Source of the DNA: an uncultured Eggerthellaceae bacterium
Lineage (GTDB): Bacteria > Actinomycetota > Coriobacteriia > Coriobacteriales > Eggerthellaceae
Assembly: GCA_905234785.1 (NCBI GenBank)
Contig: CAJOIP010000021.1
Location: 1 to 64,000 of the forward strand
DNA: 64,000 bases
Reading direction: 5' to 3'
Shown: piece after piece, positions 39,239 to 40,750 of the stretch
Position numbering within the stretch: the first letter of the stretch is position 1
How the letters are laid out: every line of letters begins with the position of its first letter
Program-made: the position numbers and the translations under genes
Notes under the pieces: model-generated
Databases searched by the model: none
Told to the model about the DNA's origin: nothing
What the model saw: only the letters and a program-made list of their open reading frames with translations

Positions 39239-39399
39239 TCCCTCGCTCCCCGATTTCCACTCGTAGCCCAGAAGGAACACGCCCCTTTTGGTTCAGCGCG
39301 GGCAAGAGCTTATACTATGGGTATGTCAGCCGTCAATCGAAGGCTTCGCGGCACGCGAGGGCGAACGACCTGGAAGGAAACCGCGAAACGAGCTACGGC

Positions 39400-39531
39400 G
39401 TGGATTTGGCAGCTCACGCACAGCGTGACAGATGGCGTCGCGACTTCGCAAACGCGGTGCGCATTGCGGTCGTCATCATCGTGCTCGTGGTGATGACGGG
39501 CTCCATCGGCGTGGTCGGCGCCATGGGCTAA
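39400..39531 (+). CDS. Possible small single-span membrane protein
   Basis: A plus-strand frame (inside ORF-track 39211..39531) ends with RIAVVIIVLVVMTGSIGVVGAMG, a convincing membrane helix preceded by basic residues. The start is uncertain: GTG 39400 gives 43 residues, with GGAAGG too far upstream; a CTG at 39370 is closer to that site. It lies in the 365-base gap between the divergently transcribed FUSC gene and the Fic gene. May be spurious. Confidence 0.3.
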   Translation: MDLAAHAQRDRWRRDFANAVRIAVVIIVLVVMTGSIGVVGAMG

Positions 39532-39603: not shown

Positions 39604-40671
39604 TCAGCGCTCGAGAGAATCGCTCCTCGCATATCGAGTCTTCCGGCCTGCGCCGATCCTGCTTAGGGTCCCGTCGTCCACGAGTTTCTTCAGCGCAGAT
39701 TCGACCGACGAGCTGCCCAAGCTCGGGCAGGCTTCGAGCGCGTCCCGCTTAGTGAACGTGCCCACCTTCCCCATGACATAGCTCCTCACGATGTCGTATG
39801 AAGTGCTCCGGGCTCCGGCGTCTTCGACAGCGCCCACACGCGAGTCAAAGTCGCGGTAGCAAGACAGGACAACGCCCAGCAAGTACTCGATGAAGGGCTT
39901 GGGGTCGTTCTCGCCGTCGTGCCAGCCAGCGTCTGCTGCGGAGAGCGCCCGGTAGTAGGCTTCCTTCGTGTCATCTATTGCCTTCTCGACGCTGACATAG
40001 CGGCCCACCAAATATCCGGCTTGATACAGCAAAAGCAGCGTCAACAGGCGGCTCATACGCCCATTGCCGTCTTTAAAGGGATGGATGCACAGGAAGTCGA
40101 GCACGAAGCATGGGATGAGTATCAGGGGATCGACTTCGCCCTCGGCGATTGCAGTGTTGTACGCTTCGCACAGCTGCTCCATAGCCCCAGGCACTTCGTG
40201 CGGCTCGAGCGGCGCGAACAACGTGACCACTTCACCGCTGGGAAGCACCGTCCCTATCTCGTTGGGAGCCGACTTGAAGCTACCGCCGAAGGAGTAACCG
40301 GTATAGCGCAACAGGTCGCGATGAAGCTGCAGGATGTAATTCGGGCGCACAGGGATGTACTCGTAGCTCTCGTGGATGAGGTCGAGCACGTTGCGATAGC
40401 CGAGTATCTCCTCCTCGTCGCGGTTCCTGGGCGTGGTCTTGTCTGCGATGAGCTGTCGGAGCCGAGGGCCGGTGGTTCTTATTCCCTCGATGCTGTTCGA
40501 GCCCTCGGTGCTCCGGATCCTTGCGATGTCAACAAGGCGGTCGAGTGCCGCGGGTTTTGCGGTCAGGTACAGCCCCTGCCTGCCCTTGTACTCATGGATC
40601 TGGGCGACACGGGAGACGATTTCGTTGCTCCATGTGCGTTTTTTCAGAACGCCGTAATCAAATTCCCTCAT
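39604..40671 (-). CDS. Fic-domain AMPylator with C-terminal winged helix
   Basis: A 355-residue Fic protein that probably transfers AMP to a protein. The catalytic motif HPFKDGNGRMSR (197-208) is intact. An N-terminal inhibitory helix carries SNSIEG (58-63), matching (S/T)xxxE(G/N) of class II Fic proteins, so it is self-inhibited. Residues about 290-350 form a winged HTH (TFTKRDALEACPSLGSSSVESALKKL). A palindromic operator lies just upstream, so autoregulation is likely. Start ATG 40671. No antitoxin gene is adjacent, in keeping with the built-in inhibitor. Confidence 0.92.
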   Translation of the reverse strand: MREFDYGVLKKRTWSNEIVSRVAQIHEYKGRQGLYLTAKPAALDRLVDIARIRSTEGSNSIEGIRTTGPRLRQLIADKTTPRNRDEEEILGYRNVLDLIHESYEYIPVRPNYILQLHRDLLRYTGYSFGGSFKSAPNEIGTVLPSGEVVTLFAPLEPHEVPGAMEQLCEAYNTAIAEGEVDPLILIPCFVLDFLCIHPFKDGNGRMSRLLTLLLLYQAGYLVGRYVSVEKAIDDTKEAYYRALSAADAGWHDGENDPKPFIEYLLGVVLSCYRDFDSRVGAVEDAGARSTSYDIVRSYVMGKVGTFTKRDALEACPSLGSSSVESALKKLVDDGTLSRIGAGRKTRYARSDSLER

Positions 40672-40694
40672 GCGTTTTCTCTCAACTTGCTTCT

Positions 40695-40750
40695 ATTTCT
40701 CCCAAATATACCACCATTTTGGGAGAAATAAACCGACGCTTGGGAGAATG
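40695..40750. promoter_or_regulatory. Palindromic operator upstream of the Fic gene
   Basis: ATTTCTCCCAAA (40695-40706) and TTTGGGAGAAAT (40718-40729) are perfect 12-bp inverted arms with an 11-base centre. A third half-site, CTTGGGAGAATG, lies at 40739-40750. The first arm begins 24 bases from the Fic start codon. The likely ligand is the HTH at the C-terminus of the Fic protein. Confidence 0.6.

Follow-up and report, generated by a model that had tools for sequence, protein, structure and literature searches.

The class II proteins make up ~80% of all Fic proteins, and their functions and control were called almost unknown in the study of CccR, a class II Fic-HTH protein of Yersinia pseudotuberculosis which was shown to repress its own gene by gel shift, footprint and reporter experiments (PMC9755527). 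Autorepression by a Fic-HTH protein is, therefore, already known from CccR. The CccR footprint, AGATAATCAT-N26-ATGATAATCT, consists of 10-bp repeats with a 26-nt spacer, which places the repeats 36 bp apart from center to center by the published sequence (PMC9755527). CccR, which is also a T6SS effector, acts without a separate antitoxin and needs to dimerize to bind DNA. In CbFic2 of Coxiella burnetii (PDB 8cil), a dimeric, DNA-binding class II Fic protein with a two-stranded winged helix, DNA binding is linked to (de)AMPylation, but no specific binding sequence has been identified (PMC10628234). A C-terminal domain of the DNA-binding type behind a class II Fic domain is also present in the anti-phage proteins SoFic or Sofic (PDB 3eqx, 3zcn); Escherichia coli Sofic is neutralized by AS1, a protein of 47 residues encoded downstream of its gene (PMC12249575).

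The Fic gene described here lies within a stretch of 64,000 nucleotides (the window) from an uncultured gut bacterium of the Eggerthellaceae. As in CccR, a class II Fic domain is followed by a C-terminal HTH, and an inverted repeat is located at the gene's own promoter. Autorepression without a separate antitoxin and DNA binding as a dimer would be further features shared with CccR. The operators, however, differ, as the repeats in the window are spaced by 22 bp from center to center, are accompanied by outer half-sites and have unrelated letters. The 22-bp geometry, the extra half-sites and a family-wide recognition code with matched operators were not found in the open-access literature searched. 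Our main reading, to which we assign a probability of roughly 0.87, is that this self-inhibited class II Fic protein also represses its own gene.

The Fic Protein Combines an Inhibitory Motif With a Predicted C-Terminal Winged Helix

The gene (positions 39604–40671, minus strand) encodes a class II Fic (Fido) protein of the AMPylase type with 355 amino acids, which was recognized by its motifs, by Pfam PF02661 (3.8e-16, 60.2 bits at a cut-off of 24), by the PADLOC SoFic profile (7.7e-39 over residues 23–351) and by an AlphaFold model. Since it reaches only 51 bits with the NCBIfam SoFic equivalog, which has a cut-off of 550 bits, the protein is, as judged by sequence, probably not a SoFic orthologue. 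The Fic motif HPFKDGNGRMSR starts at residue 197 and conforms to the pattern HxFx(D/E)GN(G/K)RxxR, which is found in 197/205 homologues. N-terminal to it in the same chain, the class II inhibitory motif (S/T)xxxE(G/N) is present as SNSIEG at residues 58–63 (codons at 40483–40500, minus strand). This motif occurs in 203 of the 205 homologues, and S58, N59, I61, E62 and G63 are invariant in the alignment (A1). The motifs thus predict a self-inhibited class II enzyme of the AMPylase type.

An AlphaFold model that was built from 15 relatives (mean pLDDT 82) predicts a winged helix at the C-terminus, with helices at residues 291–301 and 308–314, a recognition helix at 320–332 and wing strands at 336–339 and 346–349; the codons for the start of the recognition helix (residues 321–325, SSVES) are located at 39697–39711 on the minus strand. 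In addition, a DIP2311-like C-terminal regulator domain (Pfam) was weakly matched in 10/15 members. Both an intramolecular inhibitory helix and a C-terminal winged helix had been proposed by an earlier reading of the letters (in the following, the sequence-only reading), and the present homologue set and the predicted fold support both.

The closest solved relative is a Fic family protein of Bordetella bronchiseptica (PDB 8uqu), which matches with 1.6e-81 over residues 23–348. The match covers the winged helix (wHTH) in the sequence of the construct, and the structure match gave 40–41% identity with a TM-score of 0.92 by target length. No paper naming this entry turned up in the literature searched. 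The next structural neighbors were a Desulfovibrio Fic protein (4rgl), SoFic, CbFic2 (19% identity by structure match) and 7xux, which we take to be CccR and which is only weakly similar to the window protein in sequence (7.6e-8).

The gene occurs sporadically. Among 14 congeneric genomes, one has a relative of 88% identity and six have relatives of 47–48%, and further relatives are present in Coriobacteriia, Firmicutes and Spirochaetes as well as on plasmids and viral contigs. This distribution suggests an accessory gene that is probably moving horizontally.

Four Half-Sites Lie Before the Fic Gene, the Inner Two at the Predicted Promoter

Directly upstream of the gene, a perfect inverted repeat is formed by two 13-bp arms with an 11-nt gap, at 40694–40706 (TATTTCTCCCAAA) and 40718–40730 (TTTGGGAGAAATA). 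The inner half-site h1 within the upstream arm (40719–40727, plus strand) reads TTCTCCCAA in gene sense, and its counterpart h2 (40697–40705, minus strand) reads TTGGGAGAA. An exact third copy of the half-site (TTGGGAGAA) is located farther upstream at 40740–40748 (plus strand) in the orientation of h1, 21 bp from it, and a fourth, TTGAGAGAA in gene sense with one mismatch, follows downstream at 40677–40685 (minus strand) in the orientation of h2, 20 bp away and over the ribosome-binding region. The sequence-only reading had described a three-site operator with a perfect 12-bp palindrome. The perfect repeat and the third half-site were confirmed, but the arms are 13 bp long and the half-sites are four in number. 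Their centers (40744, 40723, 40701 and 40681) are spaced by 21, 22 and 20 bp, and their orientations are symmetric (< < > >). As these spacings correspond to about two helical turns, all four half-sites are expected to lie on about one face of the DNA helix.

A putative extended -10 region, TGG-TATATT (TATATT at 40705–40710, minus strand), was read directly from the sequence and aligned with that of relatives, most of which have TATAAT at this position. The -35 region is weak, which is why a scan with a promoter consensus did not call any promoter at the window Fic gene. With this assignment, h1 is located between the -35 and -10 regions, while h2 covers the 3' end of the -10 region and the predicted transcription start, which falls near 40699.

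Within the 2.26-Mb genome, the exact 9+9 dyad with any gap between 8 and 20 nt occurs once, and also with up to three mismatches at a fixed gap of 13 nt this site is the only one genome-wide. By contrast, the 11-mer with up to two mismatches is not enriched across the whole window (9 occurrences vs. 6.3 expected). It is, thus, the clustering of half-sites and the dyad that are exceptional rather than the count of the 11-mer in the window.

The Dyad Is Conserved in Position While Its Letters Vary Between Clades

Eighty relatives with 49–88% identity were fetched from genomes, and a script was used to locate their start codons and dyads. Nearly all 80 upstream regions share one layout, consisting of a -35 region, half-site 1, a -10 region, half-site 2 over the end of the -10 region and a short leader. 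The centers of the inner half-sites are 22 bp apart in 70 of 81 loci, 21 bp in 8 and 23 bp in 3, counts which are somewhat biased as the dyad finder favored a T-rich start and a -10 region and allowed spacings of 21–24 or 21–22 bp only. A scan independent of any consensus gave an average best arm complementarity of 8.7 out of 10, compared to 7.1 in shuffles, demonstrating that the repeats are real without fixing their register. When all collections were considered, a dyad of 21–22 bp overlapping the promoter passed the threshold in 122/125 close homologues from Coriobacteriia, Firmicutes, Spirochaetes and viral contigs. The half-site letters vary between clades yet match within each locus. The sequence-only reading had named conservation before orthologues as one of the points on which it would stand or fall; position, dyad geometry and promoter overlap are indeed kept in nearly all cases, whereas the letters change with the clade.

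Outer half-sites were also found in the relatives. In 48/122 loci, half-site 2 is followed at a distance of 18–23 bp by an exact extra half-site, and in 94/122 by one with at most one mismatch, counted in a 7-base core; upstream of half-site 1, the corresponding numbers are 25/122 and 56/122. It is, therefore, the downstream and not the upstream extra half-site that is better conserved. Extra half-sites at +20 and +19 bp occurred in 26 and 19 of the 122 loci, respectively, compared to 1.1 and 0.8 in control scans with half-sites of other clades. Some loci have a second upstream dyad ~52 bp away. In a few loci (L012, L054), the scanned region lacks a clear inner dyad where one is normally found: L012 retains a single half-site, CTGGGAGAA, directly before the start, and in L054 the repeats sit farther upstream. 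Two others (L048, L035) have unequal half-sites, with different letters at base 3 (TTGGGCGAA and TTAGGCGAA), and these loci may possibly represent intermediates of an operator switch.

The Half-Site Letters Follow the Recognition Helix of the Fic Protein

With few exceptions, the half-site cores are sorted by three residues near the N-terminal end of the recognition helix, namely 321, 324 and 325. Proteins with A,E,N at these positions have TTAGGC, those with S/T,E,S have TTGGGA, T,E,N goes with TTGGGC, and A or K,E,S with TTAGGA. These four pairings suggest a two-by-two scheme in which residue 321 would set base 3 and residue 325 base 6. Further combinations are S,L,A with TTGGAC, T,F,N/A with TTGAAC, T,G/V,N with TTGGTC, S,E,G with TTAAGG, S,E,K mostly with TTATGC or TTACGC, and S,E,R with TGACGA.

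As related sequences share both helix and half-site by descent, three controls for kinship were applied. In the first, the site was predicted from the best-matching locus with relatives of at least 60, 65, 70 or 80% identity left out. For the whole four-base core, the triad 321/324/325, which had been picked after inspection of the data, outperformed, at every cut, each of 1000 triplets drawn at random from the protein outside the wHTH. The second control compared all windows of 6 and of 10 residues along the whole Fic protein, for which no regions had been picked beforehand. Here, windows in the recognition helix ranked first at every identity cut; with 6-residue windows, they reached 0.50, 0.62 and 0.75 compared to 0.31, 0.45 and 0.49 for the best window outside, and with relatives of at least 65% identity excluded, the recognition helix reached 0.50, while no window beyond the wHTH exceeded 0.305. 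The third control scored co-changes by parsimony on a tree built from the catalytic part. S321 was joint top for base 3, S325 was top for base 4 and E324 for base 5, while S325 was third for base 6, where two columns of the catalytic domain outscored it. Since the tree contains only a small number of independent switches of the operator (9, 8, 2 and 10 changes at positions 3–6 of the site), single p-values were modest. The exclusion-based prediction and the tree co-change took the place of two other approaches. Simple mutual information over all columns was confounded by phylogeny, being clean for position 5 with E324 but noisy for positions 3 and 6, and a path-disjoint closest-pair test yielded too few contrasts and had little power.

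One pair of loci (L037 and L079) comes close to a natural experiment. The catalytic parts of the two proteins are 84% identical, and outside the recognition helix the wHTH is identical at 40/41 positions. The recognition helices read LKSSSIESSL and IGRASVENSL, and the operators TTGGGA and TTAGGC, so that a change of the helix appears to be accompanied by the corresponding change of the operator. This correspondence of residues to bases would allow cheap and direct predictions of the operator for each protein, provides natural pairs for studies of specificity and offers a route to asking whether AMPylation is coupled to DNA binding.

No Antitoxin Partner Is Evident at the Fic Loci

Class I Fic toxin-antitoxin modules (FicT-FicA, Phd-Doc) are marked by a separate antitoxin gene beside the Fic gene, and none is evident here. 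A search for a conserved flanking gene at 81 loci identified none common to more than 7 of them, and among the small open reading frames beside the Fic gene none was conserved throughout the family, as clusters occurred only among loci of close kinship or coincided with the operator. The neighbors of the window Fic gene encode a metallophosphoesterase and a FUSC-type transporter. An AS1-like reading frame, as is present downstream of E. coli Sofic, was also sought and none was found. An adjacent antitoxin was rejected, as the candidate neighbors are not conserved. With neither flanking genes nor small reading frames recurring family-wide, the sequences point to no antitoxin partner, in agreement with the earlier proposal of a module without one. 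Between the Fic gene and the gene of the FUSC-type transporter, there is a short convergent reading frame (39300–39531, plus strand) with a hydrophobic C-terminus. It is probably unrelated to Fic, since no Fic neighbor is conserved.

Proposed Autorepression and Alternative Explanations

Because the half-site covaries with its own recognition helix, the Fic protein is the most likely binder of the array, and its DNA-binding tail very probably recognizes the half-sites, for which the indirect evidence from covariation is strong. Repression is the most likely effect because the inner half-sites sit over the promoter, and this reading would fit both the promoter overlap and the precedent of CccR. 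The self-repressed module suggested by the sequence-only reading is, thus, supported by letters that follow the Fic recognition helix from clade to clade, with binding and repression as the predicted consequences. A Fic dimer, as expected from CccR, SoFic and CbFic2, would contact the inner half-sites, which share one face of the DNA at a distance of 22 bp, with its two C-terminal winged helices. The first winged helix would then be located between the -35 and -10 regions, and the second would cover the end of the -10 region together with the predicted transcription start, by which RNA polymerase would be excluded. Because of the 26-nt spacer in the published site of CccR, the geometry of its dimer is not simply transferable. 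The outer half-sites, ~20 bp away, may take up further protomers that strengthen repression cooperatively, and the downstream outer protomer may additionally cover the ribosome-binding region. The level of the Fic protein would cap itself in this way and the inhibitory helix would restrain the protein that is made, making an antitoxin gene unnecessary. The window protein would likewise be enzymatically active, and a role in phage defense is plausible by analogy to SoFic. In more than 120 diverse relatives, a conserved operator is matched to the protein, which suggests self-repression as a family-wide layer of control and not a peculiarity of CccR.

Alternatively, the palindrome may belong to another transcription factor encoded at an unlinked locus, with the wHTH of the Fic protein serving, for example, protein contacts or non-specific DNA binding. 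The exact dyad is present at promoters of phages in whose records, as far as searched, no Fic gene was found, and CbFic2 binds random DNA with high affinity (PMC10628234). However, letters that track the Fic recognition helix are expected from self-binding but not from binding by an unrelated regulator, and the half-site covaries better with this helix than with any other part of the protein. In addition, the site stays in place across unrelated hosts while the flanking genes change, and its uniqueness in the genome is unlike the sites of a global regulator, which was rejected on this ground. We, therefore, consider an unlinked factor highly improbable. Still less credit, close to none, is given to repeats that arose by chance or act as a hairpin or attenuator in the leader RNA. 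Inverted repeats are able to form hairpins, but one arm is located upstream of the predicted transcription start, neither a T-run nor a terminator call is present, and the outer repeats are direct relative to the inner ones and, thus, unfit for a hairpin. A site that is unique in 2.26 Mb and whose letters track the helix of the Fic protein also argues against both chance and a hairpin.

Binding by the Fic protein itself may also result in activation, or in a switch coupled to the state of the enzyme in which the DNA-bound dimer deAMPylates and the free monomer AMPylates. CbFic2 shifts between AMPylation and deAMPylation with dimerization and DNA binding (PMC10628234), and an array of three to four half-sites exceeds the needs of a simple repressor. 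The inner half-sites between the -35 and -10 regions and over the -10 region, however, occupy a position typical of repression, and CccR is a repressor, so that we regard this explanation as unlikely. An extension in which the operator DNA replaces the antitoxin is quite unlikely in our estimation: the Fic protein would be held on the DNA in an inactive or deAMPylating state, and its stripping, e.g., by phage takeover or competing phage sites, would at once lift the repression of the gene and turn AMPylation on. A two-gene toxin-antitoxin module, in which a small neighboring gene neutralizes Fic as AS1 does for E. coli Sofic (PMC12249575), appears very unlikely, given that flanking genes and small reading frames are shared only as narrowly as described above and that the window gene is flanked by a metallophosphoesterase and a transporter gene. 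Self-repression by the Fic protein, hence, remains our preferred reading.

Similar Repeats at Other Fic Loci and in Phages

Exact TTCTCCCAA-N13-TTGGGAGAA dyads were also identified at phage promoters in ~20 viral contigs (L270–L287, L293), with several dispersed copies per contig. A Fic gene was sought in seven of these phage records and none was found. Since identical dyads occur in such phages, the palindrome alone is not diagnostic of a Fic site; the phage dyads are possibly a convergent site of a phage repressor or a decoy. A ladder-like match in a further locus (L290) was discarded; located just before the tape-measure gene, it probably belongs to the protein-coding part of a phage tail region.

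The same genome contains a second Fic-HTH gene of another subfamily (L001/L240, G000:C53:10576-11757), with relatives L241–L264 in the same class. In this subfamily, the gene is preceded by a separate inverted repeat, in relatives of the type ACGGAAGTGA...TTCACTTCCGT, with a half-site unrelated to that of the window and sometimes in two tandem copies. The best 8-mer spacing was 22 bp in 17 of the 25 loci analyzed, some of which have misplaced starts and for which ties were broken towards 22. The inverted repeat of this second subfamily supports the view that self-regulation is general among Fic-HTH proteins. Another Fic protein (L002, G000:C5:52635-52919) has a helix-turn-helix-like region at its N-terminus, and at this locus CGGCTA and TAGCCG are positioned ~43 bp apart around a TATAAT.
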